Source of the DNA: Prevotella sp.
GTDB taxonomy: Bacteria > Bacteroidota > Bacteroidia > Bacteroidales > Bacteroidaceae
Direction of reading: 5' to 3'
Assembly (NCBI GenBank): GCA_017474485.1
Contig: JAFVHO010000218.1
Span: 1 to 40,584, forward strand
Length of the DNA: 40,584 nucleotides
In this document: positions 13,501-37,326 of the stretch, piece by piece
Position numbering within the stretch: position 1 is the first letter of the stretch
Layout of the letters: each line of letters starts with the position of its first letter
Translations under genes and position numbers: made by a program
The notes under the pieces: generated by a model
Database searches by the model: none
What the model was told of the DNA's origin: nothing
What the model saw: only the letters and a program-made list of their open reading frames with translations

Positions 13501-13633
13501 GATCAGCCTTGATACCTTCCTCAGAAACGGTACCATACATCCAGTACCAGAAGGTCCAAGGCTTTGTGGTGTCAGCAAAACTGACACTCATCGAAAAACA
13601 AGCAATAAGTAATGAACAATAAATTCTCTTCAT
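10520..13633 (-). CDS. GH106-like (alpha-L-rhamnosidase family) glycoside hydrolase
   Basis: This secreted protein has about 1037 residues. The start at 13633 gives the cleaner signal peptide (MKRIYCSLLIACFSMSVSFA); an ATG four codons upstream (13645) is possible. The N-terminal block PWTFWYWMYGTVSEEGIKADLKAMKDVGLGG and later blocks (LCDGFALAGGPWITPEESMKK, VSAESVAPTMTSDGMGHYKYVDMPMGEFW, NIVQAEGFTEVRGVW) have the character of GH106 enzymes. A C-terminal galactose-binding-like beta domain follows (VWLSFPNVKDIAHVWINSKDCG). Family members cleave terminal alpha-L-rhamnose, as in rhamnogalacturonans or arabinogalactan caps. I did not map the catalytic glutamates. A palindromic DNA repeat is inserted in the coding region (11005-11044). 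Confidence 0.85.
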   Translation of the reverse strand: MKRIYCSLLIACFSMSVSFADTTKPWTFWYWMYGTVSEEGIKADLKAMKDVGLGGCYLMPIRGSQEQPDYHGNANALSDNFWKMVDYSFQQADSLGLEMGIHLCDGFALAGGPWITPEESMKKIVFCDTIVRGGHHEFQMPKPKHYGDYYEDIAVYAISVGDLNVEKFGYRHADLKESYSIKDGNATTLSSGITINDKGVYCADSPCWFQYEFKEPTLVFNIEIEPSGTNIQCQRLLVKASDDGVTFKTLKQLTPPRQGWQNAGFNTTFSFPPTKAKFFRFEWTPEGSEPGAEDLDAAKWKPVFRMKDLRIRTLPALDNWEGKAGYVWRYSPSTPVEDLGKENCAYVPEMVQSTMKGDMVNLDLIGGTYCILRMGYTSTGQTNATAGGGKGLECDKFSEAAVAKQVNNWFGQFLKRPHSNVVKYLHVDSWECGSQNWTKNFPAEFQRRRGYDLLPWLPIMAGVPMRSLDKSEQVLKDVRQTIEELKNEVFFRTVSQCAKDCGIQVSAESVAPTMTSDGMGHYKYVDMPMGEFWLNSPTHDKPNDMLDAISAAHVYGKNIVQAEGFTEVRGVWDETPASIKPLLDRNFALGMNRLFFHVNTHNPWLDKKPGMTLDGIGLFFQRDQTWFPEAKGFVDYITCCQKLLQKGRPVVDIAVYTGEDLPRRALTPDKMVKWLPGLFGSERVASEQKRLANQGLPMIESPVGVNHSAGIIDLKDWINPLHGYHYDSMNKDALLTQSLNYKVLVVPDDPELPYSTAIQRIDQLRSQGVQVIEKPYTGTVFNTVEPDAVLPEGIDFTHRTGDDFDIYFLSNQTDKELTFTPTFRQKRDKAVLYNAVTDKSIPFDGTVSLPAYGSLFVCFGEAGSPQASDCQSAGVGRTVRTAQTNNVVWDISFRETGMTLKGQQPFDWSKHADDKIRYFSGHARYSTMWKLKKKEVPTGRVWLSFPNVKDIAHVWINSKDCGIAWTAPYEVEITGALKKGKNTIEIEVVNTWHNALRGADQGKAPYNGIWTNAKYRTTGDGLLPAGLIEAPVLKIEQ
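11005..11044. repeat. Intragenic palindromic direct repeat in the GH106-like gene
   Basis: The 18-mer GTCCGACGCCTGCGGACT occurs at 11005-11022 and 11027-11044, a 22-bp period. Each copy is itself a stem (GTCCG/CGGAC), and a partial third copy precedes them. On the coding strand one copy reads SPQASDC and the other QSAGVGR, because they lie in different frames. Confidence 0.85.
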
Positions 13634-13668
13634 AATAATCGTCATTATTTAATTAGTTATATTTATCA

Positions 13669-16494
13669 TTATTCAAAATGTAGGATAGCATTGATACTAC
13701 CTTGCCCCTTTGACCAATAAGGCTGAGCAGAAGGACCATTGAGGTCCGTTGTGTTCACCTTGTTGCGAACAGCAGGAATGGTTTTGAGGATAGAGATGCC
13801 AGTTTCTGGGAGGGTGTACAAAATATGGTCGCGTCCGTCACGAGGGGTATAGACACCCACTTTGCCGCTGAGTAGTTCTATACCGAACTTACCTTCCGTC
13901 GTCTGCAACTTCATCCACGAGACATTAGCGAAATAGCCCTTGAACTCTGGATACTCGAATGTCTCGCCAGGAATGGGGTCGTTATAGTCGTTCTGCCACA
14001 ATCCATACTGCGGACCTTCCATACGGTTCTGCCAAACACGATAAGGCCCCTTGCCTACCCATTGCTTGCTCTTGACCATCGTCTCAGGATAGTCGAAGCA
14101 GATGCCCATGAGGTCGACGACGCCATTGAAGTAATAATTGACGTTCATATACACGCCGCCATCAGCGAGGAAGCGCCACGTCACCTTTTCAATGGAGCCA
14201 TGCTGGTAGTTGGCCACCAGCGTGCTGTCGCCAAGGGTAAAGCCTGCGAAGGCACCTTGGTCGGCATACTCAGTATATTCCGTCTTCTTCTGGAAGGCTT
14301 CCTTGTCGTCGTGATTGTAAAAGCCGTCCTGCGAACGGTCGGCACGCTTGGCAGCCACAAAGCGAGGCCCATTGCTAAACGACAGCTTTTTGCCATTCAC
14401 GCTGACACCCATCAGCAGCCCCGTCTTCTTGCTGAAGGTGTATTGGCGAAGTCCATGCTGAACCAACAGCTGGTCGCCGTCCTCTGTATACAAGTACTGT
14501 TGCGTGTTCTTACGCAGTGTGGGTTTGTGGAAGTTGCCAGCCCTTGTCATATGCTTACGGCTCCACGTGAATATCTCCTTTCCATACGGGTCGATAGCTT
14601 TCAGCTCTATCACATCAGCATCTGTTCTTTCGATTTTCAGTTGGGCGCGCTCACCTGGTGCAGCATCTGGCGAAGGGAGTTTCACCTCCTTGATGACCTT
14701 GACCTCCGATTCTCCATAAGTAGGCATCTTGAGCAGTCTGTAGCTGAACTGGCAGTCCTTCAGGTTGATGAAGTTGTAGCAGTTCTGAATGGTGAAAGCA
14801 CCACTATCAAAATATAAAACCTGTACAGGGCTCCATACCTCGCGAATGGTATAGTAACTTCCTTCCTTCTCCATGTGAGGCCCCACTATACCGTCAGAGC
14901 CGAAGTTGCCCACTGGGTCAAGAATGCCATTCATGTCTGTACGAACCACTGCCTGATCCATCAGGTCCCACAGGAAGCCGCCAGCACAACGAGGATTGCT
15001 CATCATTAACTTCCAGTAGTCCTTCAGGCCTGCTCCATGTCCGCCATCATACAATCCGTGCAGGAACTCCGTAGGCATGAAGATTTCCTTCTGGCGCATA
15101 TACTCTGCTGTCTCGCCCCACGAACGATAGTGCTTGGTCTCGAAACCATTGCGGTTAGCCCAAGGGTAAAGTACGACACGCTGTTGTGGGTCGAGTTTCG
15201 TAAACATAGACTCTAACTCATAGTTAAACCCGCCCTCATTGCCATTACTCCAGAAGATGATGCTGGGATGGTTCACGTCGCGCGTCACCATTTCCTCTAC
15301 AATCTGTGAACCCACGATGGTCTCATGGGCATTGTGCCAACCAGGCTGTTCACATTCTACATAAAGGCCTAAAGAGTCACAGGCATCCAAAAACTCTGGG
15401 TCGGCAGGATAGTGACTCAAGCGGACTGCATTCATATTCATGCTCTTGATGAGCAACACATCCTCAATATTCTTCTGCTTTGACAGCGTGCGACCAGTTT
15501 CAGGACGGAAAGAATGACGATTCACGCCCTTGAAGATGACCTTCTGACCATTAATGAACACACCATCTTCCTTGTCACCAGCGTATGTGTGACGATACTC
15601 AATGGTACGGAAACCAAACTTCTGACGCTCTACGTGGACTATCTTGCCCTGCTGATCTTTCAGCGTGAATACGGCAGTATAGAGGTTAGGCTGTTCTGCA
15701 TTCCACAGTTTGGGATTGTTGAAAACGAATTTGACCTGTGCATTGTCGCTTTTTACAGGGAAGGCCGGGAGTTTGCCTCCGCTTTTTCCATTTGCGTCAA
15801 GGATATCAATACCTATCCAATAGCCGGGCATAGCCTTATTCAGGAAGACATCGGCATTAAACCACCCGTCAGCCTTAGCATTAATGGCTACACGCTGAAT
15901 ATTATGAACAGGCTTGGCGATGATAAATACAGGACGCCAGATGCCTCCAAAGTTCCAATAGTCAGCACGACGTTCAGCAAGGTTCACCTGCGGATTGGTA
16001 CTCTCTTTCAGCACCTCAACCTCCAAGCGGTTCTTCTTTGATCCAAAGAAGACACGATCGCTAACGTCAATGGTATGACGGGTAAAACCACCCTGATACG
16101 TGCCATTGCCTGCCTTACGTCCATTAATTTGGACATGAATCTCTGTAAATGCAGCTTCGAACACCAGCTGTATTTGACGTCCTGCCCATTCCTTAGGCAA
16201 TGTAAACTCCGTCTTGTACTTGCCAGTCTCGTCAGCAATACCCTCTGGCGTAGCCTTACCATAGAAGCGCATACCATACTGGTACGTGCCAAAGCCCTGT
16301 AATTCCCAACAAGAAGGAACGCCAATCTTCGCCCACTTCCCACTATTTCGGCCATCAGTGCAGAAGAAGTCCCACTGCACCATATCGTCGCATCCATGTC
16401 CACTCAGATATTGCCGTTGCGTTTCTACCAACGACTGAGCCTGCATTGATGAGAAAGCAAATCCCAATAATGCCAAAAGAAAAGTTCGTCTCAT
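13669..16494 (-). CDS. GH2 family beta-galactosidase-like enzyme
   Basis: This 941-residue secreted GH2 enzyme has a signal peptide (MRRTFLLALLGFAFSSMQA), then a jelly roll (about 45-195), an Ig-like domain (about 195-300) and a TIM barrel from about 305. The acid/base E420 is in FWSNGNEGGFN, and E476 in PTEFLHGLYDGG is the likely nucleophile. A C-terminal Bgal small-chain-like domain follows (KQWVGKGPYRVWQNRMEG). It is the first enzyme gene after susD. Its start codon sits in the loop of a perfect 13-bp stem (16479-16526) whose 3' arm is codons 2-5. Beta-galactosidase is the default guess, and other beta-glycosidase specificities are possible. Confidence 0.93.
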   Translation of the reverse strand: MRRTFLLALLGFAFSSMQAQSLVETQRQYLSGHGCDDMVQWDFFCTDGRNSGKWAKIGVPSCWELQGFGTYQYGMRFYGKATPEGIADETGKYKTEFTLPKEWAGRQIQLVFEAAFTEIHVQINGRKAGNGTYQGGFTRHTIDVSDRVFFGSKKNRLEVEVLKESTNPQVNLAERRADYWNFGGIWRPVFIIAKPVHNIQRVAINAKADGWFNADVFLNKAMPGYWIGIDILDANGKSGGKLPAFPVKSDNAQVKFVFNNPKLWNAEQPNLYTAVFTLKDQQGKIVHVERQKFGFRTIEYRHTYAGDKEDGVFINGQKVIFKGVNRHSFRPETGRTLSKQKNIEDVLLIKSMNMNAVRLSHYPADPEFLDACDSLGLYVECEQPGWHNAHETIVGSQIVEEMVTRDVNHPSIIFWSNGNEGGFNYELESMFTKLDPQQRVVLYPWANRNGFETKHYRSWGETAEYMRQKEIFMPTEFLHGLYDGGHGAGLKDYWKLMMSNPRCAGGFLWDLMDQAVVRTDMNGILDPVGNFGSDGIVGPHMEKEGSYYTIREVWSPVQVLYFDSGAFTIQNCYNFINLKDCQFSYRLLKMPTYGESEVKVIKEVKLPSPDAAPGERAQLKIERTDADVIELKAIDPYGKEIFTWSRKHMTRAGNFHKPTLRKNTQQYLYTEDGDQLLVQHGLRQYTFSKKTGLLMGVSVNGKKLSFSNGPRFVAAKRADRSQDGFYNHDDKEAFQKKTEYTEYADQGAFAGFTLGDSTLVANYQHGSIEKVTWRFLADGGVYMNVNYYFNGVVDLMGICFDYPETMVKSKQWVGKGPYRVWQNRMEGPQYGLWQNDYNDPIPGETFEYPEFKGYFANVSWMKLQTTEGKFGIELLSGKVGVYTPRDGRDHILYTLPETGISILKTIPAVRNKVNTTDLNGPSAQPYWSKGQGSINAILHFE

Positions 16495-16526
16495 ATACGT
16501 ATATTTATATATAAGACGAACTTTTC
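16479..16526 (-). promoter_or_regulatory. Perfect 13-bp stem-loop enclosing the GH2 start codon
   Basis: The arms GAAAAGTTCGTCT (16514-16526, read on minus) and AGACGAACTTTTC (16479-16491) flank a 22-nt A/T-rich loop that ends with the ATG (16492-16494). On the mRNA the 3' arm is followed by TTTTGG. It could limit translation, act as a partial attenuator, or be a processing site between susD and the enzyme genes. Confidence 0.75.
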
Positions 16527-16551
16527 AACAATTTGTCACTACATTGCCATA

Positions 16552-18762
16552 TTACTCGGCCAACGGGTCAAAGGTGCCATTTGCATTGCCACGTGTGTTG
16601 TCTTCCCAACCAATTGTCTGGTAAATACCTTTGTTACGAGACATGGCTGAACCGTTGAGGCCTAACAGATAGTACTTGGCAAGGAACGTGATGTATTCTA
16701 GATTATGGCTCGAGTCATAACCGTCACCACGACTCTCTCTGCGTACCAAGTTGTCTGCATACCAAGCCTTGAGCGTTGTCAACTGGGGAGCCAGTTCTTT
16801 TCGTAAATCTACGCCTTCAGGGCGTTCAACACCACCTTTGACCAGTGGGTCGCCATTGACATTGTTCTCACCAACGCCCCACTTGTCTGCTGTACGGAAC
16901 AGCATGTTCTCACGACGCTGGCCATTCAGAGGCTTAAAGCCAAGCCATTTGCAAGTATTACCATCCCAACCTGTCAGCGTCCAAGAAGAAGGAGCGCCTA
17001 CTATGCTGGAAACACCTGTACCACCATCAAAGAGCATCCAACGGCGCAAGTCATCAAAGCGCTTACCCTCATAAGCTAACTCTATCTGGCGTTCATATAA
17101 AATAGCGCTCATGCAAGCCTTTTGATCGTTACTCAGATTTGCTTGCAATCCATAGTTATTTTCTGCCGTATAGCCTACGCGTGCACGAATCTTCTGAAGC
17201 TGTTCCACTGCTTCCTCCATGTGTCCAGCCATACAAGCGGCCTCAGCATAGTTGAGCAATACTTCCGCATATCGAATTTCAATATAAGGAGCTGCAGAGT
17301 TTACAAAGCCACTGACATTGGCTGCCGCTGCCCAGTTTGCATAAAGCGGACTGACATTGACATCAAGATCATCAGAACGCTTGCGAACATAAATACCCTT
17401 GGTATTGCTCAGCAGGTTATCTGCACCATAAGACGTACCACTTTCTACATTACCTTGGTCATTCTTGTCAAGATACCAAACATAGTTCCAAAGAACATAG
17501 TTACTACCCGCATTGTATGAGGGGTTATCAGGATTGGCCGTTGTGGGATCACCATTATATGCCCAACGGAAACCTGGCATGGCGAAAGTACGATAGAAAC
17601 GAGGATCACGATTCATGAATGGATAATCATGTGTATTATTCGTCTGCTCAGTGTACGAGCTCGTCTCTAACAATGTATAGGTGTCTGCACTGGCAGGAAT
17701 CTTACCATCAGCCATCGGGAACATATCAACCATCATAGCAGATGCGTTTATGCCACCACCGCCAGAGGTATTCTTAGGACGGATATTGCTTTCCCATCCA
17801 TTGTTTCTCGCCATGTCCGTTCCATTCTGAACGGTATTGTAAAGCGATACAAATACTGCCTCAGAACTCTTGATTTCAGTAAACATCTTGGCGAAGTCAG
17901 AAGCATTGATATTCGAACCTGTCTGGTAAAGGCCATGGCCACAAGCATCAATCGTCGCCATGTCTGCCTGGATTTCATCATAAGCTGTCGTCCAACGTTT
18001 GGGGTCGTTGGTACGATTGAACAACGGACTGGCCCATAATAGCAGCAAACGACCCTTTAAAGCCAGTGCTGTTGCTGAGGTCACACGTCCCCAATCGTCG
18101 CTCTTCACCCAACCGCCATTAGCCGTAAAGGGCTTCAACAGTTTGGCAGACGTGTTGAGGTCGTCAAGAATAAACTCCATGGTCTCCTTCGAAGACGAAC
18201 GCTGTACAAACACGTCCTTGGTAGGATTCAGAACAGTCTTGACAATAGGCAGTCCACCATACCACTTAAACATATTATAATAACGCCACGCACGAAGGAA
18301 CAGTGCCTGACCAATCAGCTGGTCCTTTTGCTCCTGAGAAAGCGTAGAGCCTTCAAAACCAGCTATCATTTCGTTAATATTACGGATGTGTCCCCAAGGG
18401 GTCTCCTGAATATTCTGGTTAGAATTCTGGAAGTAATCAGGAACAGCATTATCGCCAGAAGTCATCAACTCCACTTCTGGATTGACAAAGAAACCAAAAC
18501 TACTGTATTCCTCTGTACACTTTGACTGGTCATCGCTCTTACCCGTACTGTTGAAACGCCAACTCGGGTCTGCTGTTGCATTAGGAAGGACAAAGGAGTA
18601 AGCGTCTGCCAAACGACCACAACATCCTTCAAAATCGTTATAGACATCAACGCTGACATACTCATAATTCTTCTTGTCTTGTAAGAACTGGTCACTGCAA
18701 GCAGTCAACGACAACGCTACTGTCATTCCAAAAGCTATAATATGATAATAATTCTTTTTCAT
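16552..18762 (-). CDS. SusD/RagB-family outer-membrane lipoprotein
   Basis: This 736-residue starch-binding-like (RagB/SusD) lipoprotein has a lipobox ending at C22 (VALSLTACSDQ). Helical TPR-like segments are recognisable (LIGQALFLRAWRYYNMFKWYGGLPIV; RYAEVLLNYAEAACM), as is the C-terminal RagB/SusD signature (AILYERQIELAYEGKRFDDLRRWMLF). It forms the lid of the SusC transporter and captures oligosaccharides at the cell surface. It is long for the family. It is translated 24 nt after the SusC gene, the usual order, and 57 nt separate it from the first enzyme gene. Confidence 0.96.
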   Translation of the reverse strand: MKKNYYHIIAFGMTVALSLTACSDQFLQDKKNYEYVSVDVYNDFEGCCGRLADAYSFVLPNATADPSWRFNSTGKSDDQSKCTEEYSSFGFFVNPEVELMTSGDNAVPDYFQNSNQNIQETPWGHIRNINEMIAGFEGSTLSQEQKDQLIGQALFLRAWRYYNMFKWYGGLPIVKTVLNPTKDVFVQRSSSKETMEFILDDLNTSAKLLKPFTANGGWVKSDDWGRVTSATALALKGRLLLLWASPLFNRTNDPKRWTTAYDEIQADMATIDACGHGLYQTGSNINASDFAKMFTEIKSSEAVFVSLYNTVQNGTDMARNNGWESNIRPKNTSGGGGINASAMMVDMFPMADGKIPASADTYTLLETSSYTEQTNNTHDYPFMNRDPRFYRTFAMPGFRWAYNGDPTTANPDNPSYNAGSNYVLWNYVWYLDKNDQGNVESGTSYGADNLLSNTKGIYVRKRSDDLDVNVSPLYANWAAAANVSGFVNSAAPYIEIRYAEVLLNYAEAACMAGHMEEAVEQLQKIRARVGYTAENNYGLQANLSNDQKACMSAILYERQIELAYEGKRFDDLRRWMLFDGGTGVSSIVGAPSSWTLTGWDGNTCKWLGFKPLNGQRRENMLFRTADKWGVGENNVNGDPLVKGGVERPEGVDLRKELAPQLTTLKAWYADNLVRRESRGDGYDSSHNLEYITFLAKYYLLGLNGSAMSRNKGIYQTIGWEDNTRGNANGTFDPLAE

Positions 18763-18786
18763 AATCAGTATACTTTATAATTATCG

Positions 18787-21700
18787 TTAGAATGAAACGT
18801 TTAAACCTACAGTAAACTTACGCAACATGGGATATTTGCCATAAGTACACATGGGGTCGATAAATTTGTCGGGGTACGGGTTGTAAAGGCTCAGCAAATT
18901 GAGTCCCGTTACGTTGACACGTACATTCTTCAAACCAATCACCTTCACCCAGTCGGTAGGAAGTGTATATGCCAGGGTTATGCGATTCAGACGAATGCGG
19001 GTTCCGCTGACACGCCAGAATGACGACTCCACACGGTTGATGTCAAAACCTGGGTTAGGATAAGCTGCGTCAGGATTAGCCTTTTGGATAAGATTGCCAC
19101 TACCGTCATAGATGTCTTTGTAAACAAACACGTTGTCAGGATTCCAGAACGAAGGCATGCTACCATATTCAATACTCTTCGACTCATTGTTAGGACTCAA
19201 AGCGGCAGTGGGCACCTGGCTGTATCCACCCCAACTGGCATTAAACTGTGCTGTCAGCGAAAGGCCCTTCCAAGAAGCATTCAGATTGCAAGTAAATGAG
19301 TAAGGATTCGAACGGTTAGACAGGCGAACCTGGTCGTACAACTGACTCACTTCATGGTCAGGACCTTCATAAGTGCCGTCTTCCTTCTTATGTCCACGTA
19401 CGTCCTTATATATCAGCATACCAGGATATACTCTATCCTTAGTCAGACTCATGTAAGTACCATACGATCCATCATCTTTCTTCAAATAAGTATCGAAATA
19501 TTCCTCAATATCCTGGAACGAACGGAACATGCCGATACACTGCATACCCCAGCCAGAAGTGAAGTCTGTACGAGAACCATAGACATACTGCTTATACTGG
19601 TCGTCACCTTTTTGCCAGTCCATCTCCAATATCTTATTGTCACTATAGCCAGTGTTGAGATTTACAGAATATTTGAAGTTCTTACCAATCTTATCACGCC
19701 ATGTGGCACCAATTTCAACACCCCAACTGTTCATCTCACCATAGTTTGTCTGAGCTGTTTGAGTACCAATAATACCCTCAATTTCCTGAGTGAGGCTTAA
19801 CAACATCTCACGATTGCGCTCACTCCAGTAGTCAATATTGAATGACAGACGTTTATTGAGGACTGAGGCATCGAGACCAAAGTTAAACTTATACGACTTG
19901 TCCCAATGAGCATCGGCATTAACAGCAGACATCGTCTTGCTGATAGATATACGAGCTTGTGTGTCACCATTCATATTGGTTCCAAACATCGGGCCACGAT
20001 AGGCATCTGCACCATAGTGCTGCATCCACTGCCAAGGAATCGTGTTATCACGACCTGTGATACCCCAACTGGCACGAACCTTCAAGAAGTCCACCCAGTT
20101 GACAGCTTTCTGGAACCATTCTTCTTCACTGATAATCCAACCTGCCGAGAACGATGGGAAGGTTCCCCAGTAATTGTCTGGTGAGAACTTGGTCGATGCA
20201 TCCGAACGCAACAGGAACTCAAAGAGATACTTGTCAGCATAAGCATAGTTCAAACGTCCGATATATGACAATGAGCCAGACTCAGCACGTGTAAAGTCAC
20301 CACTGCGCTCACCAATGGCCGTATTCGACTGGAAATTGGTAAATGAATATGGACTCTGCTTGGCCTGACGCGAAAATTCACTTTCCGCTTCCGACTTCTC
20401 GATAGAGAACAAGGCGTTGACATGGTGCTTGCCAAAGTCACGGGCATAGTTCATTGTAAAGTTTATCTGATAATTGTCCGTACGAACCATATCGCGCTGC
20501 AGATATCCATGAGCATCACCGCCATTAGCTATCTCAAGTGCCATAAAGTTATCTGGAGTCAGGTAATCTGCATAGTTGTCACCAACTGCCGTATAAAGGT
20601 GATTACCACTTCCCGTACGATTGCGCATCTGGTATAATGTAAACTTGCTACCAAACTCGTTGGTCTTATCAGTATTGATACTCTTTGCGTAGGTGAAATT
20701 GGCTGTCAGACCCTTCAATGGCTCCCACCAGCCAAAGTCAAATTTCAGCGAGCCATTTATCGTCATGCTCTGCGACATGCTCCTACTGAAGTCCTGATTG
20801 TTCTGCAACACAGAGAAATTATAGTATTGTTCATCTTTTTGGCGTCCATTGGTGATACCATAATTTGGCAAATAATAGCCGTCACCCACGTATTCAGGAA
20901 TGTAGCGAGGACGAGTCAACAACTGACGATAGTCATTTTCCTCATTAGACGAGCCAATCTTCACTAATGGCTTGTTCTTTTTGCCATAGTCACCACTTAA
21001 GGTCATATTTGCTGATACCCATTTGCTAATCTTGACATCCACACCGACACGGGCATTCCATCGGCTATAATCCAGATTACCAAGATTACCGTCTTGTGTA
21101 AAGTATGATAGATTGGCAAAATAGCTGGCGCTTTCTGTTGCACCACTCACGTTAACACCATGTTTCTGGGTGATAGCAGTCTCCCAATACTTGTCGAGAA
21201 GATCATAATTCAAACCTTTCATAGCCTCCAGTTCATCAGCCTGATACAAGCCAATAGTCTTATTCAGTGACGTGTTTGTAGGATTCGCAGTGGCCATGAT
21301 ATTATATAAGCGTCCATAGTTGTATGCATTTAACATCTTTGTACGACTTACTTCATCATTGAAACCAAAGGTTCCACTATATGAAATCTGAGGTGCTCCA
21401 AGTTTACCTTTCTTAGTAGTTACCAAGATTACGCCATTAGCAGCACGTGAACCATAGACGGCAGCAGCAGCATCCTTCAGCACAGAGATGCTTTCCACCT
21501 CATTCGGGTCAAGGTTGTTGAAAGCTTCAGCACCCAGATTCTGATTACTATTACCCACCTTCACATCATTCGGATAGATATAGCCGTCAATAACGTAGAG
21601 GGGCTCCTGGGCAGTAGAACCGATATCTGCTAACGAGCCTGAGCCACGAATCGACATAGTGGCACGCACGCCAGGACGAGCTTCACCATCGTCACTGACG

Positions 21701-22137
21701 CTCAGTCCAGGAACCAGACCACGAAGTGTGGAAGCTAAGTCACCAGAAGCAATATCGCGAATGTCGTCCATAGGAACAGTCACCACGGCACCCGTCAAGT
21801 GAGCTTTCTTCTGTGAGCCATAACCCACGACGACAACTTCCTGTAGATTCTGCTTGTCTTCTTGCAGTTGTACTTTACCGCCAGGCTTTACCGTCATAGG
21901 CAAATAGCCAATATAGCTGATGACGACCTTAGCCCCTGCAGGAGCTGATATCTTGTAATTACCATCCAAATCGGTAACAGTTGCCGTCTTCGTACCAGCC
22001 ACCGTCACTGTTGCTCCAATCACAGGTTCGCCGAGTTCATCGACAACAGTACCCGTCACGGTTTGGTTCTGTGCCAAAGCCGATGTAGAAAACATCAGCA
22101 TCATACCAAGGCATAAAGCTTTAATATATCTTTTCAT
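18787..22137 (-). CDS. SusC/RagA-family TonB-dependent receptor
   Basis: This outer-membrane importer of oligosaccharides has about 1116 residues. The start at 22137 gives a proper signal peptide (MKRYIKALCLGMMLMFSTSALA); a frame start 30 bp upstream would overlap the preceding gene. A carboxypeptidase-D-like domain (TVTGTVVDELGEPVIGATV) is followed by a TonB-box-like segment (LQEVVVVGYGSQKK). The plug (IRGSGSLADIGSTAQEPLYVIDGYIYPNDV) and a long barrel follow, ending in an aromatic C-terminus (FTVGLNVSF). It pairs with the SusD gene downstream. It would be energised by TonB/ExbBD, which are not encoded here. Confidence 0.97.
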   Translation of the reverse strand: MKRYIKALCLGMMLMFSTSALAQNQTVTGTVVDELGEPVIGATVTVAGTKTATVTDLDGNYKISAPAGAKVVISYIGYLPMTVKPGGKVQLQEDKQNLQEVVVVGYGSQKKAHLTGAVVTVPMDDIRDIASGDLASTLRGLVPGLSVSDDGEARPGVRATMSIRGSGSLADIGSTAQEPLYVIDGYIYPNDVKVGNSNQNLGAEAFNNLDPNEVESISVLKDAAAAVYGSRAANGVILVTTKKGKLGAPQISYSGTFGFNDEVSRTKMLNAYNYGRLYNIMATANPTNTSLNKTIGLYQADELEAMKGLNYDLLDKYWETAITQKHGVNVSGATESASYFANLSYFTQDGNLGNLDYSRWNARVGVDVKISKWVSANMTLSGDYGKKNKPLVKIGSSNEENDYRQLLTRPRYIPEYVGDGYYLPNYGITNGRQKDEQYYNFSVLQNNQDFSRSMSQSMTINGSLKFDFGWWEPLKGLTANFTYAKSINTDKTNEFGSKFTLYQMRNRTGSGNHLYTAVGDNYADYLTPDNFMALEIANGGDAHGYLQRDMVRTDNYQINFTMNYARDFGKHHVNALFSIEKSEAESEFSRQAKQSPYSFTNFQSNTAIGERSGDFTRAESGSLSYIGRLNYAYADKYLFEFLLRSDASTKFSPDNYWGTFPSFSAGWIISEEEWFQKAVNWVDFLKVRASWGITGRDNTIPWQWMQHYGADAYRGPMFGTNMNGDTQARISISKTMSAVNADAHWDKSYKFNFGLDASVLNKRLSFNIDYWSERNREMLLSLTQEIEGIIGTQTAQTNYGEMNSWGVEIGATWRDKIGKNFKYSVNLNTGYSDNKILEMDWQKGDDQYKQYVYGSRTDFTSGWGMQCIGMFRSFQDIEEYFDTYLKKDDGSYGTYMSLTKDRVYPGMLIYKDVRGHKKEDGTYEGPDHEVSQLYDQVRLSNRSNPYSFTCNLNASWKGLSLTAQFNASWGGYSQVPTAALSPNNESKSIEYGSMPSFWNPDNVFVYKDIYDGSGNLIQKANPDAAYPNPGFDINRVESSFWRVSGTRIRLNRITLAYTLPTDWVKVIGLKNVRVNVTGLNLLSLYNPYPDKFIDPMCTYGKYPMLRKFTVGLNVSF

Positions 22138-22154
22138 AGTTTTACCTTTTTTTA

Positions 22155-23648
22155 TTAGGGCAGCCAACGTGGGTCACCTGTTCCAAAAGCCACCTGCTTT
22201 GCACCACTGATATGGAAGTCGCCTGCAGCAGGATTGGCGAATTGAGGGTCTTCCTCTATCTGAGTTCCTGAGGTGTCGTAGTTGCCTACAGAATCGAATG
22301 TGCCATTAGCCTGCATATAAGTGTTATATCTAAAAGTCACATTACTGCTACCAACAGCATAGGTCTTACCATGCAGGAAACGACGGGGAACGCCCCCCTT
22401 TGCACTACATGCGTAGAAAATGCAGTTGGTCATCGTCCAGTATGATTCAGCCTTTCCGTTCATACCATTGTAGTTACCCCATTCGCCTTCATTATTAAGA
22501 TAACCGATGCGATAGAAAGTGCTATTCTTGTAGTTCACGCTGTTAGAAGCCATACCAATATCTTTGGCACGATACATACCTGCCTGATAGAAATAATAGA
22601 TGTCGCCTTCCTCAGTGAGATTATAGAAGGTAGAATTGCTAATCGTTAAATCATTAATATGTCCACCTTTATTTGTCCAAATAACGCCTACCTTTGAAAA
22701 ACCTGGAGGGGTAAGAGCTACCACACAATTGTCGATGAGAAATTGAATAGCTGCAATTTTCTGATCCTTGCGGCTGTCCCAGAAGAAATAACCATTCACG
22801 TTGTCAAACGTACAACTGAGGATCGCTGTATTACCACCAAAGATTACAAAGCCCGTAGCGTCATCTCGTACTGCCGTTGGAGCTTTAGAGAATCCGAACA
22901 CACCAACATTGGCAGCCATACCAGAACAGTCGAAGTGTAGGTACTTCGCACTAAATGGTGCAGCAAAATTGATGCACGACTTTTCTGTCGTGTAGTTAAT
23001 GTTTGCAGGATTAGTCTTATTATTACTGCGTAATGTTACCCAATGGGCGTCAAAGTCAAGTTCATCGCTCACAATATAAGTGGCGCCACCTTCAAGATCG
23101 TAATTCAGGTTTTTACCAATAGAATCATCGGGAATAGCATTTTCAGGCTTGGCAAACCACTCGCATAGGTCTGTAGGCTGTCCGTCTGTCAATGCTGGAA
23201 TCGTCATGTAAGTTCGCGTAAAAGTCGTAAACTTCTTAGTGGCCACAGTATCAGCATCACCATTGCCCTTCTTTGAATTACCCAATGCCAAAATGGTCAA
23301 TTCGTAGTTTACGTCTTCTTCACGTTTACTCGTAATCGTACAGCCATCCACAACGCTATCGTTGATGATGGGATGGTCAGGGTTGCCAACGTCTATCAGA
23401 CGTACACGATAGCCACCGGCTCCCATGACTACAGGCCAGGTGAATGTCTGACTCTTACCGTCAGTACTTTCCTTAACGGTAATGCCTTTAGCGTCTACAA
23501 CACTTACCTTAGTATTGTTTACTCCTGCATCAAAGCGCTCATCGTCGTCATAGCCGTCTTGAGCACAAGACCCAAAGAAGAGTACACCAGAGGCAATGAT
23601 TGCCAATGAGCACAATTTCCTGGTTGTTAATAAAAAATTCTGTTTCAT
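22155..23648 (-). CDS. Surface lipoprotein, DUF4957/DUF5123-like
   Basis: This 497-residue lipoprotein has a lipobox ending at C28 (GVLFFGSCAQ) followed by acidic residues (DGYDDDERFD), as in surface-exposed Bacteroidetes lipoproteins. Residues about 45-150 resemble a fibronectin-type III domain. The remainder looks like a right-handed beta-helix with repeated short strands and ends with PQFANPAAGDFHIS...GDPRW, typical of DUF4957/DUF5123 proteins in pectin- and xylan-type PULs. It probably binds glycan at the cell surface, taking the place of SusE/SusF. It lies directly upstream of the SusC gene in the same operon (17-nt gap). Confidence 0.8.
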   Translation of the reverse strand: MKQNFLLTTRKLCSLAIIASGVLFFGSCAQDGYDDDERFDAGVNNTKVSVVDAKGITVKESTDGKSQTFTWPVVMGAGGYRVRLIDVGNPDHPIINDSVVDGCTITSKREEDVNYELTILALGNSKKGNGDADTVATKKFTTFTRTYMTIPALTDGQPTDLCEWFAKPENAIPDDSIGKNLNYDLEGGATYIVSDELDFDAHWVTLRSNNKTNPANINYTTEKSCINFAAPFSAKYLHFDCSGMAANVGVFGFSKAPTAVRDDATGFVIFGGNTAILSCTFDNVNGYFFWDSRKDQKIAAIQFLIDNCVVALTPPGFSKVGVIWTNKGGHINDLTISNSTFYNLTEEGDIYYFYQAGMYRAKDIGMASNSVNYKNSTFYRIGYLNNEGEWGNYNGMNGKAESYWTMTNCIFYACSAKGGVPRRFLHGKTYAVGSSNVTFRYNTYMQANGTFDSVGNYDTSGTQIEEDPQFANPAAGDFHISGAKQVAFGTGDPRWLP

Positions 23649-23704: not shown

Positions 23705-24598
23705 CTATTCTCTAGGGCTCTGCCCGCAAAAAATCTTCTTTAGGTAAGCTACATTTCGTCCATAGTTGCCCTTGACGTTTTTGACGTCCTTGGCATTGCG
23801 CGAACGCTCTACCACAAGCCAGCCGCTCCAATTCATATCATCGAGGGCCTTTTTCACGCGATACATGTCTATACGTGGGTCTTCATCGAGGGTAACACTG
23901 TCTGTCAACGAGGCATGTATCTGGGCTACACGCTTCGCTCCCAGCTTTTTCAGTTCCTTAGCCGGGTCGCGTCCGTTATCGACAGCATCTTGGAGATTAT
24001 AGTATATTTTGATGCCTTCACTATCGATTTCCTTCAACAGTTTCTTGTCGCCCTTGGCATCCAACTGCGTACGGATAGCGATGACCTTGCCTGCAAGACG
24101 GGCCATCTCGCCCACCTCATGCAGACGACGTACCAACTCTGTACGAGCTGCACCAACCTCTTTCCATTCGTGTCCGCTACCACCCAAAGGCAGGAAGGCT
24201 ATCTTCGAGCCCATCACATCCATCGACTGTAGACAGTCATCAATCAATTCACGATAGTTGTCGCGCTTCAAAAAGTTCTGTGCAAAGAAGCCTGACATCG
24301 CCAATGAGGGAACTTTAACACCTACGGAGTCGGCTGTATGACGGAATAACTGTTGGAAGTGCTCATCGCGCAGCTTATTGTCAAACAGGATGCGCTGTCC
24401 CAGCGGTCCCATATCCATCTCTACGCCATCGGCACCAATCTCGCGGGCCAACTTGAATTCGCCTATCTTCTGGCGTTTCAACATCATCCAGTCGCAGGCA
24501 GCCACACGATAGCGCTGTGCCACCAGGCCCGTTGGCCACATGGTAAGCATGACGACTGCCCCCGTCAAGAGGCACTTACGAGTTGACTTCCAATTCAT
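23705..24598 (-). CDS. Sugar phosphate isomerase/epimerase-like TIM barrel protein
   Basis: This 297-residue protein belongs to the xylose isomerase-like/AP endonuclease 2 superfamily. Its core blocks are KLAREIGADGVEMDMGPLG, LQSMDVMGSKIAFLPLGG and DDMNWSGWLVVERSRN. An N-terminal hydrophobic segment (residues 11-27, LTGAVVMLTMWPTGLVA) predicts export to the periplasm, as in many Bacteroidetes members of this group. It is the first gene of the PUL operon. The reaction is unknown; related proteins act on sugars or keto-sugars. The array of near-palindromes at 24745-24822 lies upstream of it. Confidence 0.85.
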   Translation of the reverse strand: MNWKSTRKCLLTGAVVMLTMWPTGLVAQRYRVAACDWMMLKRQKIGEFKLAREIGADGVEMDMGPLGQRILFDNKLRDEHFQQLFRHTADSVGVKVPSLAMSGFFAQNFLKRDNYRELIDDCLQSMDVMGSKIAFLPLGGSGHEWKEVGAARTELVRRLHEVGEMARLAGKVIAIRTQLDAKGDKKLLKEIDSEGIKIYYNLQDAVDNGRDPAKELKKLGAKRVAQIHASLTDSVTLDEDPRIDMYRVKKALDDMNWSGWLVVERSRNAKDVKNVKGNYGRNVAYLKKIFCGQSPRE

Positions 24599-24890
24599 TT
24601 TTGTTTTTGTAGACTATATAGTTTCACATCATTTAAGACGTTTTAGCACTCGTCATGTCATCATTTCATCTTTTTTTCTTGCATCCAGCCAAATTACTAC
24701 ACTTCATTCGAGATCACTTTTCTTTTCATTAATACAACTTTTTGTTTCAGGACCTGAAATATATATTCCAAGACCTGAAATATATATTCCAAGGCCTGAA
24801 ATATAAGTTTCAAGCTTTGAAACAGAAAATGTCATTAGGAAATAAAACATTTACTCTTAATCCCAAATAAAAATAAATGAGATACCCACA
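24599..24890. other. PUL upstream region with 21-bp repeat array
   Basis: This gene-free region separates the first PUL gene from the terminator of the upstream lipoprotein gene. It contains the 21-bp array at 24745-24822 and about 145 A/T-rich bases below it. No perfect TAnnTTTG box is found on the minus strand (only TAATTTGG near 24700), which fits a promoter that needs an activator. Confidence 0.5.
24745..24822. repeat. 21-bp tandem array of near-palindromes (iteron-like)
   Basis: Two identical 21-bp units start at 24751 and 24772, with a third diverged unit at 24793 and a fourth partial unit at 24814. At each junction lies a near-palindrome of the form TTYCARG-n-CYTGAAA, starting at about 24745, 24766, 24787 and 24808. 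The spacing of two helical turns would place bound dimers on one face of the DNA. It lies 150-225 bp upstream of the first PUL gene. Confidence 0.85.
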
Positions 24891-24925
24891 AAAAAAGTGA
24901 CCCCGCGAATTGCAAGGTCACTTTT
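24891..24925 (-). terminator. Rho-independent terminator
   Basis: On the minus strand AAAAGTGACC, a 12-13 nt loop and GGGTCACTTTTTTT form a strong stem followed by a T-run, 27 bp after the stop of the lipoprotein gene at 24952. Confidence 0.85.
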
Positions 24926-24951
24926 GTTATTGATTGACTGAACAATGATTA

Positions 24952-26151
24952 TTATTCATCCTTCTGCTCAATGAAGTTGGTGATGACAATCTTCTTGATA
25001 ATCATACCCTTCTTAACCTTAACTACGATGTAGCCAGTACCATTATCAGCAGGAGTTATAGTCTTCACCCTAATATTTGCCTCAGAAGCAATCTCTGTCT
25101 GACCAGGTACAGCCTCAACACCGTCAATTTCGGCAGCAGCGCGAACACCAAGACCTTCTGTTGAACTACCGTCACCAATAGCCCAAAGCAACTTGTTGTC
25201 CAGAGGAGTAACCACTGTCTTTGTGCTGACAAGCGTAATACTACCTATAACAAGATCAGGAGCGCCCCAATTATTTTTAATAGCATTCAAGTGTGCGAAG
25301 CCCTTCTCCTGAACCATCAGAGCCAAATCAACAGTAATTATTACAGCGTTCTCAAGCGTATCAGCCTTAAAATACTTTGCTGACCAGCCACCTTTGGTGT
25401 TGTCAATCAAGTGCGATTCTGCCTCATTTTCATTCCATTGGCCATCTTGAACGTCACGGTTGAAAAGCATACGTGGTGTACCTGCTGTAACAGCAAGTAC
25501 CATTTTTGAATATCCTGAGAGATCAGCATAATTATTTACACTTGGATCACCATAAACCATTCCTCCTGCACCTACTGCAGTACCTAACTCTGCTTTTGTA
25601 CAGTCTGCTGTCTTCTCTTTTTTAGCATCCTTTCCAAATGTTCCTTCACAATCATAGAAAGCAGCATCATACAAATTAATAACCTCATCTTCCTTCTCTT
25701 CTTTCACACCAGGATCATATGTAATCTGGACGAGAGCACCCTCCAACAGGCCATCGATAGCAAACTCTCTGTCATTGGGGCAGAAGAGACCACCATTCTT
25801 GATGTTACCGTTAATACGGTCGCTACGACGCCAAACGTGACATACCTCAGGCAGCACGCTACCCTCAGCCCATTCATAACCCTTGTAGTCATTACGCTTG
25901 CTATCTGTCTTGTCAGCTTTCTCCCAGCCATAGAAACCCTGACCATTGTTCTGGTTACCATTGAAGTTTGTAGGATTCTCACCAGCATTGAATGCTGCTT
26001 CAAAGTCATAGATAAATGTCTCCTCAACAATAACGGGCTCAGGTTCTTGCACGGGCTGCGGAGCAGGATTGTCCTCAACTGTACATGACTGAATACCGAA
26101 TGCACAAGCCATCATAATAACTGATGCATACAAAAAATTCGTTTTCTTCAT
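24952..26151 (-). CDS. Lipoprotein of unknown function
   Basis: This 399-residue lipoprotein has a lipobox ending at C23 (AFGIQSCTVEDN) and a proline/glutamate-rich tether (PAPQPVQEPEPVIVEE). The body has no domain I recognise; it reads as beta-rich, with the motif FIYDFEAAFNAGENPTNFNG near the N-terminus that suggests a carbohydrate-binding-like sandwich. It has its own promoter (26205-26236) and terminator (24891-24925), so it is a single-gene unit separate from the PUL. A cell-surface binding role is plausible but unproven. Confidence 0.75.
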   Translation of the reverse strand: MKKTNFLYASVIMMACAFGIQSCTVEDNPAPQPVQEPEPVIVEETFIYDFEAAFNAGENPTNFNGNQNNGQGFYGWEKADKTDSKRNDYKGYEWAEGSVLPEVCHVWRRSDRINGNIKNGGLFCPNDREFAIDGLLEGALVQITYDPGVKEEKEDEVINLYDAAFYDCEGTFGKDAKKEKTADCTKAELGTAVGAGGMVYGDPSVNNYADLSGYSKMVLAVTAGTPRMLFNRDVQDGQWNENEAESHLIDNTKGGWSAKYFKADTLENAVIITVDLALMVQEKGFAHLNAIKNNWGAPDLVIGSITLVSTKTVVTPLDNKLLWAIGDGSSTEGLGVRAAAEIDGVEAVPGQTEIASEANIRVKTITPADNGTGYIVVKVKKGMIIKKIVITNFIEQKDE

Positions 26152-34136: not shown

Positions 34137-34538
34137 CTATTTCTTATAGAAATAATGGAAAAGCAGGCCATAAACCACCGCCAAAGTCACGCCAGTACTG
34201 TTAGCAGCCATGTCGAGCCACTCACCACCACGATAGGTCGTACAATACTCCTGAAGCAGTTCGATAACACCACTCATCACGATGGGCAACAGCCACGCAT
34301 AAAAGAAGAGTTTTTCGCCATCCAGCGTCAGATGCTGACGGATATATTCCGTCCATATCACGCCACACGTACCACCATACATCACGACATGTGTCCATTT
34401 GTCAACAAAAGGCACATCTTCTAAGCCTTCCATCTCTGGGAAGGGCAAGAACGACAATATCCATATCAGCACGATACAGCAAATGCTGAAGGGATATTTC
34501 TTGGCAATTTGCACTGTTTTTTGCAGAATATCTTTCAT
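34137..34538 (-). CDS. VanZ-like membrane protein
   Basis: This 133-residue inner-membrane protein has four predicted membrane segments and VanZ-family features: LSFLPFPEM, DKWTHVVMYGGTCGVIW, and a C-terminal GVIELLQEYCTTYRGGEWLDMAANSTG block. The start at 34538 is preferred over an upstream in-frame start because the promoter lies between them. The function of stand-alone VanZ proteins is poorly known. It is divergent from the first NSS transporter and shares a symmetric promoter region with it. Confidence 0.88.
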   Translation of the reverse strand: MKDILQKTVQIAKKYPFSICCIVLIWILSFLPFPEMEGLEDVPFVDKWTHVVMYGGTCGVIWTEYIRQHLTLDGEKLFFYAWLLPIVMSGVIELLQEYCTTYRGGEWLDMAANSTGVTLAVVYGLLFHYFYKK

Positions 34539-34543
34539 TTCGG

Positions 34544-34577
34544 TTGCAAAAGTAAGAATTTTTTTATACTTTTGCAA
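34544..34577. promoter_or_regulatory. Symmetric overlapping divergent promoters
   Basis: A perfect inverted repeat (TTGCAAAAGTA, 12 bp, TACTTTTGCAA) holds two back-to-back promoters. The minus -7 TACTTTTG is 34547-34554 and the plus -7 TACTTTTG is 34567-34574. The TTG at the outer end of each arm lies 19 bp from the other promoter's -7 box, so each -33 lies at the edge of the opposing -7. Confidence 0.75.
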
Positions 34578-34583
34578 GCGATT

Positions 34584-35963
34584 ATGAAGAATTTTGAAAT
34601 GGCTAAATTAGAAAGAGCGAATTTTGGCAGTAAACTGGGTGTCATTCTGGCTACGGCAGGCAGTGCTGTCGGACTGGGTAATGTATGGCGTTTCCCGTAT
34701 ATGGCAGGCGAGAATGGCGGTGCCGTTTTTATTATCATATATGTGGCATGTGTGCTGTTGTTAGGTATTCCCTGCATGATCAGCGAATTCATCATCGGAC
34801 GCCAGGGTCGTGCCAATACGGCTCGTGCCTATAGAAAATTGGCGGGCAAAAGCCCATGGGCCATCATCGGCTATATGGGTGTGCTGACAGGTTTTTTGAT
34901 TACTGGCTATTATGCCGTTGTGGCTGGCTGGTGCCTGCAGTATATATGGGCGTCCCTAGTTGGGCACATGACTGGTTCACCAGAATACTTCCAACAGTAT
35001 TTTGCCTCGTTGGCTTCCGACCCCGTCAAACCTGTTTTTTGGACGCTTATTATTCTGGGTATCACCTACTTGATTATCGAACATGGTGTCCGTGACGGTA
35101 TTGAACGGGCCTCGAAACTCATGATGCCTACCCTATTCATCCTGCTACTCGTCATCGTGGTCGCAGCATGTATGCTGCCAGGAGCCGAGAAGGGCATCAA
35201 CTTCCTTTTTAAACCAGATTTTACAAAGATCAACGGCGATGTATTCCTAGCGGCTTTGGGACAGTCGTTCTATTCGCTCAGCATTGCGATGGGCTGTCTG
35301 TGTACCTATGCCAGCTATTTTTCCAAACAAACCAATCTCACCCATTCGGCTGTCCAGATTGCCGTCATCGATTGTCTGGTTGCCATCTTGGCAGGACTCA
35401 TGATTTTCCCTGCAGCCTTCTCTGTAGGTGTTAATCCTGACTCAGGACCATCGCTCATCTTCATCACGCTGCCCAACGTATTCCAACAGGCCTTTGGCTC
35501 AATACCTGTCGTGGGCTATCTGGTGTCGTTGTTGTTCTTCGTTCTGCTGTCATTAGCTGCATTGACGTCACTGATGTCGCTTCATGAGGTCTCTACGGCT
35601 TTCTTCCAAGAGGAGATGGTCATTACACGTAAGAAGGCTGCACTCATCGTCACCATATCAACAACGATAATCGGTGCTTTCTGCTCGTTGTCGTTGGGCG
35701 CTGTCGACTGTTTCTCGTTCTTAGGAAAAACGCTGTTCGACTGTTTCGACTTCATCACAGGCCAGATATTCCTGCCTATCGTAGGTTTCTTGACATGTAT
35801 CTTTATTGGCTGGTTCCTGCCACATAAGATTGTCCGTGACGAGTTCACCAATTGGGGCACATTACGTGGACGCTTCTTCCATTTCTACCTGTTCCTGGTC
35901 AAATACATCTGTCCGTTGGCCATACTATTCATTTTCCTACACCAATTAGGCTTATTGAATTAA
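34584..35963 (+). CDS. Neurotransmitter:sodium symporter (NSS/SNF) family transporter, copy 1
   Basis: This 459-residue sodium-coupled transporter of the LeuT/MhsT family has about 11-12 membrane segments. TM1 carries the signature GSAVGLGNVWRFPYMAGENGGA with the unwound glycine region that binds sodium and substrate. TM6 and later blocks are also conserved (FFSLSIAMGCLCTYASYF-like; NPDSGPSLIFITLPNVFQQ). The substrate is probably an amino acid. The ATG at 34584 follows the -7 box by 9 bp, so the leader is very short; a second ATG five codons in is possible. A paralogue follows 7 bp later. Confidence 0.93.
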   Translation: MKNFEMAKLERANFGSKLGVILATAGSAVGLGNVWRFPYMAGENGGAVFIIIYVACVLLLGIPCMISEFIIGRQGRANTARAYRKLAGKSPWAIIGYMGVLTGFLITGYYAVVAGWCLQYIWASLVGHMTGSPEYFQQYFASLASDPVKPVFWTLIILGITYLIIEHGVRDGIERASKLMMPTLFILLLVIVVAACMLPGAEKGINFLFKPDFTKINGDVFLAALGQSFYSLSIAMGCLCTYASYFSKQTNLTHSAVQIAVIDCLVAILAGLMIFPAAFSVGVNPDSGPSLIFITLPNVFQQAFGSIPVVGYLVSLLFFVLLSLAALTSLMSLHEVSTAFFQEEMVITRKKAALIVTISTTIIGAFCSLSLGAVDCFSFLGKTLFDCFDFITGQIFLPIVGFLTCIFIGWFLPHKIVRDEFTNWGTLRGRFFHFYLFLVKYICPLAILFIFLHQLGLLN

Positions 35964-35970
35964 GATCATC

Positions 35971-37326
35971 ATGAGTGAACGCGGTAATTTTAGCAGCAAG
36001 TTAGGCATTGTATTAGCAACAGCAGGCAGTGCTGTCGGACTGGGTAACGTATGGCGATTCCCCTATATGGCTGGCGAGAATGGTGGCGCGGCGTTTATCC
36101 TTATTTATATAGTCTGCATCCTGATATTGGGGGTTCCTGGTATGGTGAGCGAATTCATCGTGGGTCGTCATGCTCAAGCCAACGCTGCGGCTGCCTACGA
36201 CAAGCTTAGCGGTGGACGTCCTTGGCGACTGGTGGGCTACTTAGGTATTCTTACCTCTACCATCATTCTTGGCTTCTATGCGGTGGTAGCCGGCTGGTGC
36301 CTACAGTATCTGTATGCCTCAATAGCTGGTCAAGTGGTTGGCGATGCCGACTACGTCAAGAACTACTTCATCGAGTTTTCAAGTCACCCTTGGCGACCTT
36401 TGCTTTGGGGTGTTGCCTTTGTGCTGTTGACCCATCTGGTTGTCGTTCGTGGCATACGCAAAGGTATTGAACGGGCCTCGAAACTACTGATGCCCATCCT
36501 GCTCATTCTATTATGCATTCTGATGGTGGCATCGTGCATGCTGCCTGGTGCCATAGAAGGTGTGCGGTTCCTATTCCAGCCTGATTTCAGCAAGATCTCC
36601 AGCAGTGTGTTACTCGAAGCCTTGGGACAGGCATTTTTCTCGCTGTCGTTAGGTACTGCTTGTCTCTGTACCTATGCCAGCTATTTTTCTCGTGACACAA
36701 ACCTTTTGAGGTCTGCTGGCCAGATCGCCTTGCTGGATACATTAATAGCCATCCTGTCGGGACTCATGATTTTCCCCGCTGCTGCCTCTGTCGGCATCAG
36801 TCCTGACTCAGGACCCTCGCTCATTTTCATCACGCTGCCCAACGTGTTCCAACAAGCTTTTGCCTCTATGCCTGCTGTTGGCTATGTGGTTAGCGTCATG
36901 TTCTATGCCCTATTGGTATTTGCTGCCTTGACCTCTACTATCTCCATGCACGAGATTGGTACAGCCTTCTTTACTGAAGAGCTGTCATTGCTACGTCGTC
37001 GCTCTGCCTGGGTCATCACATTGATTGCCTCAGCTATCTGCGTCATCTGTTCGCTGTCTGTTGGGGCAGTACCCGACTTGCAACTGATGGGACGCTCTGT
37101 GATGGATTTTTGCGACCAGTTGACAGCCAACTTCATGCTACCTACAGGTGCCATGTTGGCCTGTCTGTTTGTGGGCTGGTATATACCTCGCCAGGTGGCA
37201 CATGACGAGTTTACCAACTGGGGTACACACGGACAGCGCTTCTTCCCCATCTATCTCTTTGCCGTGCGCTACGTCTGTCCGCTGTGCATCATTCTTGTCT
37301 TTCTCCATCAGTTAGGTGTTATATGA
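35971..37326 (+). CDS. Neurotransmitter:sodium symporter (NSS/SNF) family transporter, copy 2
   Basis: This 451-residue paralogue of the preceding gene has the same architecture and nearly the same TM1 (TAGSAVGLGNVWRFPYMAGENGGAAF) and SPDSGPSLIFITLPNVFQQAF block, with divergence elsewhere. The tandem arrangement points to local duplication, perhaps with a split in amino-acid specificity. Its stop overlaps the start of the next gene by ATGA, so translation of the two is probably coupled. Confidence 0.93.
   Translation: MSERGNFSSKLGIVLATAGSAVGLGNVWRFPYMAGENGGAAFILIYIVCILILGVPGMVSEFIVGRHAQANAAAAYDKLSGGRPWRLVGYLGILTSTIILGFYAVVAGWCLQYLYASIAGQVVGDADYVKNYFIEFSSHPWRPLLWGVAFVLLTHLVVVRGIRKGIERASKLLMPILLILLCILMVASCMLPGAIEGVRFLFQPDFSKISSSVLLEALGQAFFSLSLGTACLCTYASYFSRDTNLLRSAGQIALLDTLIAILSGLMIFPAAASVGISPDSGPSLIFITLPNVFQQAFASMPAVGYVVSVMFYALLVFAALTSTISMHEIGTAFFTEELSLLRRRSAWVITLIASAICVICSLSVGAVPDLQLMGRSVMDFCDQLTANFMLPTGAMLACLFVGWYIPRQVAHDEFTNWGTHGQRFFPIYLFAVRYVCPLCIILVFLHQLGVI

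Follow-up and report, generated by a model that had tools for sequence, protein, structure and literature searches.

A dispersed, 21-bp-phased palindrome array in Prevotella sp. predicted to bind an HU-type protein that probably ends in a winged helix

Results

We analysed a 40,584-nucleotide stretch of Prevotella sp. DNA (the window) that holds an array of near-palindromes in front of a PUL. The array is likely to be a dispersed binding site of a PF18291 HU protein with a predicted C-terminal winged helix, encoded on contig C132 of the same draft genome; the protein is tied to the dispersed arrays because their units are near-identical to those of its own leader. The system is most likely centred elsewhere in the genome and not on the PUL. 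A predicted HU-plus-winged-helix family, with several copies in many Prevotella-group genomes, thereby gains candidate binding sites, and 59 leader/protein pairs provide a candidate recognition code for it.

The array in the window

Four near-palindromes of 15 bp lie at 24745-24822, with start-to-start distances of 21, 21 and 21 bp (Table 1), and Tandem Repeats Finder assigns the array a period of 21 and a score of 103. The first three units match TTYCARGNCYTGAAA exactly. When one mismatch was allowed, 8 motif matches were counted in the window, at 4 sites read on both strands, and every one lies inside the array; dinucleotide shuffles of the window (n=100) gave a mean of 0.19 and a maximum of 3 matches, and 0 of the 100 reached the observed 8. 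The exact 21-bp spacing of four sites reported in the initial annotation is thus confirmed by coordinates and by a match count that no shuffle equals, and the look of the array agrees with its description there as a helically phased protein-binding array.

Table 1. Features at and around the array, in window coordinates.
Feature	Position	Strand	Description
Unit 1	24745..24759	+	TTTCAGGACCTGAAA; palindrome perfect about central base
Unit 2	24766..24780	+	TTCCAAGACCTGAAA
Unit 3	24787..24801	+	TTCCAAGGCCTGAAA
Unit 4	24808..24822	+	TTTCAAGCTTTGAAA; weaker, one mismatch to TTYCARGNCYTGAAA
First PUL gene	23705..24598	-	PF01261 xylose-isomerase-like TIM barrel; downstream of array
5' region adjoining first PUL gene	24599..24664	-	Conserved in G007 and G123, without array
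Array-holding interval	24665..24892	.	228 bp; equivalent interval 29 bp in G007, 10 bp in G123
Terminator-like hairpin after upstream gene	24890..24928	-	13-nt arms, 92% complementary
Upstream gene	24952..26151	-	399 aa; ends before array; no Pfam/NCBIfam match

The PUL and its array-free relatives

The PF01261 gene is followed by a gene for a DUF4992/DUF4957/DUF5123 protein and then, at window positions 10520-22167, by SusC, SusD, GH2 and GH106 (alpha-L-rhamnosidase) genes, a content that perhaps indicates a substrate of pectin type. Of the 27 other genomes searched, 5 have relatives of the first PUL gene, and the closest of these are in G123 (89%) and G007 (84%). Both genomes also carry a relative of the 399-aa upstream gene, with a hairpin similar to that of the window at the equivalent place. 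Intervals were measured from the terminator of the upstream gene to the operon's conserved 5' region, and the window array falls within the extra DNA missing from G007 and G123. The conserved 5' region probably contains the operon's own promoter. The whole G007 genome gave no match to the window array, and the G007 regions matching the C6 and C149 array sites have no array either; at the latter, the sequences barely align upstream of the C149 gene's promoter. The array had been annotated as an element of the PUL, a reading that the array-free orthologous upstream regions of G007 and G123 contradict, and the case cautions against assigning an array to a PUL on position alone.

A list of 57 window ORFs of at least 100 aa, many of them spurious, yielded 19 proteins that were scanned with Pfam, and no PUL regulator was found among these 19, which bears out the annotated lack of a regulator gene nearby. 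The sole regulator-like match was a weak, sub-threshold helix-turn-helix at the start of a Fic/DOC-family protein (2522-3409). Nothing was found linking the array to SusR, HTCS or ECF control, to which the initial annotation had likewise been unable to assign it. Elsewhere, the window contains a tandem repeat with a 51-bp unit (1972-2129; 3.1 copies, 86% match), a BspA-type LRR gene (640-1395) some 600 bp away from that repeat, and an adjacent gene pair (34509-37326) of which both members match the sodium:neurotransmitter symporter family, SNF.

Five arrays in the source genome

The draft genome searched comprises 2,976,813 bases in 236 contigs and is 72.7% complete. The exact motif is confined to five arrays, on contigs C6, C79, C91 (the window), C132 and C149, and a reversed-pattern control gave 0 matches in the whole draft genome. 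Relaxing the search to a 21-base pattern with up to 3 mismatches recovered these five arrays again and added two single sites, each with 3 mismatches, on C56 and C184. The window array has four units and the other four arrays have three. Oriented alike, all five begin with a perfect-palindrome unit of the type of unit 1 and end with a TTCCAAG unit; the middle unit on C149 is likewise of the perfect-palindrome type. This common unit order means that the arrays probably arose by copying from one another. In pairwise comparison they are identical at 292/300 half-site positions, 127/150 centre positions and 88/120 inter-unit bases, and their 60-bp flanks are unrelated (28-48% identity, ungapped).

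According to gene calls made with a simple codon-usage script, convergent gene pairs flank two of the four arrays that lie away from the regulator gene described below, which speaks against a plain promoter operator. A genome-wide search for the 21-mer with a listing of downstream genes had been proposed as a check of the PUL connection; that search found the five arrays next to genes that are unrelated, with two arrays lying between convergent genes, and leaves the connection unsupported.

A candidate partner protein

The C132 array is the 5' leader of a 205-aa gene (12528-13142) encoding a PF18291 HU-HIG protein (E 9.1e-17). Its three units lie 63 bp upstream of the gene, directly preceded by a Bacteroidetes-type -7 box, TACCTTTG. 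Because the same array forms its leader, this gene is the likely regulator gene. Genes of the same type adjoin arrays in G176 and G262, and the divergent neighbour of the C132 gene is PF02618 YceG.

Against the PF18291 cut-off of 26.2 bits, the C132 protein scores 61.7, the G262 relative 47.2 and the G176 relative 53.1. Against TIGR01201 HU_rel (cut-off 68.6), the C132 protein scores 69.9 and two subfamily relatives fall short of the cut-off, at 53.4 and 56.1. The HU-HIG family was reportedly described and defined by Burroughs and colleagues in 2017. The C-terminal third of the C132 protein lies outside the Pfam match, and no Pfam model matched this part. The C-terminal region is conserved. 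The best solved match to family profile positions 136-211 is the MarR-family regulator 7dvn, a weak match (E 0.047), and the C-terminal part is a probable winged helix by this prediction. Winged helices are among the HU fusions named in the PF18291 family title and description.

Leader arrays across the gene clade

We searched 398 genomes of the genus at a clade threshold of E<=1e-40 and found at least 69 clade genes in 44 of them, scoring at most seven candidates per genome. The 200 bp upstream of each gene were scanned for periodicity at lags of 10-40, with p from dinucleotide shuffles. The best lag was 21-23 bp in 66/69 leaders (21 in 59, 22 in 4 and 23 in 3), and 61/69 combined such a lag with p<=0.01. 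In the coding DNA of the same 69 genes, used as a control, lags of 21-23 occurred in 4/69, with p<=0.01 in 0/69. Other upstream or random regions gave lags of 21-23 in 12/61, with p<=0.01 in 3/61; 8/61 passed p<=0.01 at whatever lag. The three passing controls are the C132 array itself and two 22-bp arrays, L283 (G006, beside yceG) and L292 (G003).

Eight leaders fail the strict test. Five of these (L213, L221, L240, L269 and L277) have a lag of 21 or 22 with p 0.03-0.18; L247 and L248 have a lag of 11, and L260 has no array. When 247 genomes of the order were searched with a profile, relatives turned up in 5 besides the source genome. These hold 13 genes, one without upstream DNA, and 10 of the 12 leaders gave p<=0.01; of the two misses, L228 has a lag of 21 (p 0.02) and L231 has no array (a lag-23 tie, p 0.98). 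The G508 gene is as close as those of genus members (E 6e-103) and may reflect transfer or misbinning.

Some arrays with other sequences were seen among the control regions. Those in L283 (plus strand, bases 1301-1500) and L292 (minus strand, bases 1301-1500) have a 22-bp period with 35/42 matches and lie near yceG, and that of L283 is palindromic; both may be sites of other HU-type paralogs. Regions L293 and L296 show a strong 16-bp periodicity (42/42 matches in L293, 30 and 32/42 in L296).

Unit sequence and protein subfamily

The subfamily of the C132 protein has the unit TTYCAGG.CCTGRAA. Unit types with TTGCA mostly go with NY/SY...ASREL helices and GTTC...GAAC types with ASNDL helices, and further unit types exist. 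The candidate recognition helix is of the SRTQ-ASREL type for TTYCA units, and SYST-ASREL is one of the types paired with TTGCA. Across the 59 leaders with a 21-bp period, similarity between units correlates with winged-helix identity (0.545) and with HU identity (0.511). The partial correlation is 0.22 for the winged helix given HU, a value that 0 of 2000 permutations reach in a test that ignores phylogeny, and 0.02 for HU given the winged helix. Relatedness lies outside this model, and the covariation is therefore support, not proof, that unit sequence tracks the winged-helix part rather than the HU domain.

One array is common to G159 and G262, where its neighbours, identified by eye, are alaS and a gene for a gyrase-like subunit. 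Its half-sites are kept at 38/40 positions, against 27/38 elsewhere in the array (p 0.006); the adjoining 60 bp are kept at 50/60.

Arrays away from the gene

The window array matches 18 of the 398 genus genomes at E<=0.01, scoring at most two candidates per genome and counting a few matches that are short and weak. The clade gene is present in 10 of these 18 and in 34 of the 380 others (Fisher 2.3e-6), an overlap that is partly circular because some of the matches are the leaders themselves and the source genome is included. The other 8 of the 18 lack a clade gene at E<=1e-40. Three of them, G051, G159 and G295, have strong matches and are 67-81% complete; G142 (99% complete), G201, G227, G378 (93%) and G432 (91%) have weak matches or 22-bp arrays. 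The arrays at L052 and L063 in G432 and at L057 in G378, both genomes lacking a clade gene at that threshold, are in the same style but repeat every 22 bp and have the half-sites TTCCA/TGGAA.

A second unit type, TTGCAGGnCGTGCAA, matches 11 of the 44 gene-bearing genomes searched, occurring in G121 at the leader and three other places and in G114 at the leader and two others. The dispersed array of G171 resembles, by eye, another subtype more than it does G171's own leader.

For gene context, 32 arrays were reduced to 31 rows by removing L160 (cut at the locus end) and L089 (weak, on a Nitrospira contig) and adding L131, which is L035's place. Setting aside three gene leaders, one duplicate and four unclassifiable rows leaves 23, which lie between convergent (9), tandem (11) or divergent (3) genes; one divergent pair represents a single place found in two species. 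An exact 17-base scan of wider contigs matched at least 116 stretches, with arrays in few among the matches listed. Phage carriage received no support: 9 viral contigs had a single motif match each, none forming an array, and protein-profile patterns matched 20 stretches of viral sequence, none encoding a relative.

The dispersed arrays at L343, L344, L346, L339 and L015 lie near a terminator-like T-run, several directly after it, which may hint at an insertion preference.

Discussion

Proposed mechanism

If the window array is a site of the C132 protein, dimers would read the half-sites TTYCA/TGRAA, which alternate in orientation about one helical turn apart, and the HU bodies would bend the DNA at the flexible TATATA steps that separate the units. 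Three or four dimers could in this way wrap the DNA in one complex on one face. At its own gene, where the array stands just downstream of the -7 box, the bound complex would stop transcription, giving autorepression. At the dispersed sites it may act as a local block or as an insulator between transcription units, and any influence on the regulation of this PUL would have been added recently.

In most relatives the array has this design but another sequence, as might be expected if each DNA-packing protein of the family had an address code of its own. A broader proposal is that the paralogs of this HU-type clade are self-addressed, mutually distinct array binders. Each would hold its address in its leader, in the form of a phased palindrome array; address and recognition helix would drift together, the gene-plus-leader unit would move between chromosomal places, and array copies would spread through the genome as additional landing sites. 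We put this forward tentatively, judging it somewhat more likely to be wrong than right. If true, close species would differ in which HU proteins wrap which loci.

Alternative explanations

The dispersed arrays could instead be functionless relics, left where a promoter-leader-gene unit moved in and lost its ORF, in the manner of a solo LTR or MITE. There are signs of such movement. The C132 gene unit is homologous to its G229 and G176 copies over a segment that begins 170 bp ahead of the start and ends just short of the stop codon, between flanks that are unrelated. In G007, YceG and the malQ-like gene (so named by eye) are direct neighbours with no HU gene between them, and the HU gene is absent from 8/8 other genus loci that have both neighbours, G007 included, so the unit is probably a recent arrival at the C132 site. 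A promoter box and array stand without the gene at L035, L044 and L101, and at L048 without a clade gene called beside them; the promoter-box pattern also matches beside L057 and L342. The unit order common to the five source-genome arrays, pointing to copying, fits relics as well. Relics would not be expected to keep half-sites better than spacers, however, as is seen both within the source genome and in the array of G159 and G262, and a regular-expression scan of the source genome's own dispersed arrays found no clear promoter box. We therefore consider relics unlikely.

Chromosome-organising or replication sites for the HU protein (centromere-, matS- or iteron-like) would agree with the few arrays per genome, their frequent location off promoters in the 23 classified contexts, and the autogenous array adjoining the gene. 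The distribution is patchy, with the array in 18/398 genomes and the gene clade in 44/398 under the scoring given above, and its absence from close relatives would be odd for an essential chromosome function; this explanation seems to us rather improbable.

The leaders might also act as RNA, with hairpins that attenuate transcription or bind the HU protein. Prevotella leader arrays lie downstream of the -7 box and should be transcribed. Furthermore, 679/885 half-site cells of leader units pair, and the mismatches include 65 G.T against 39 A.C, a bias that an RNA hairpin would favour. Against this, the array of G082, a member of another family, is upstream of its promoter-like box and not downstream, and dispersed arrays occur outside leaders in both orientations relative to genes. 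A structured leader RNA of the kind catalogued in Rfam, which covers known families only, was rejected, with no window match at the gathering threshold. Overall we regard action as RNA as very improbable. Hardly any credence is left for an operator array that is specific to the PUL and serves a local transcription factor (SusR, HTCS or ECF type), which we rejected: the array does sit in intergenic DNA upstream of the PUL, but it is absent from the orthologous G007 and G123 regions, where the adjacent 5' region is conserved, and it recurs at unrelated loci, two of them convergent.

Comparison with known systems

In the accessible part of the literature searched, which included few subscription papers, we found no description of such arrays, nor of binding sites or autogenous arrays for HU-HIG proteins. 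HU is a textbook nucleoid protein with little sequence preference, and the C132 protein is a member of HU-HIG (PF18291; TIGR01201 HU_rel) by score.

Plasmid iterons are phased repeats beside the gene of an autoregulating Rep protein, and here too several phased repeats of about 21 bp adjoin the gene of their presumed binder. The iteron-like reading offered in the initial annotation holds for this architecture and fails for the protein: the gene led by the array encodes a PF18291 HU-type protein and not Rep, its divergent neighbour being PF02618 YceG, and there are additional, unlinked arrays.

REP elements and BIMEs occur in tens to hundreds of copies per genome, and BIMEs involve an HU/IHF-class protein. 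Arrays of the window type are likewise short, palindromic, extragenic and dispersed. They differ in number, with five in a 2.98 Mb genome that is 73% complete, well short of high copy, and in their strict 21-bp phasing; moreover, the array here doubles as the leader of the presumed regulator gene, and the unit changes with the protein subfamily.

The likeness to parS/ParB and matS/MatP is that of a dedicated protein with few sites, and the half-site GTTTCA...TGAAAC is superficially similar to parS. The spacing and the tandem array set the present system apart from both, as does its patchy presence.
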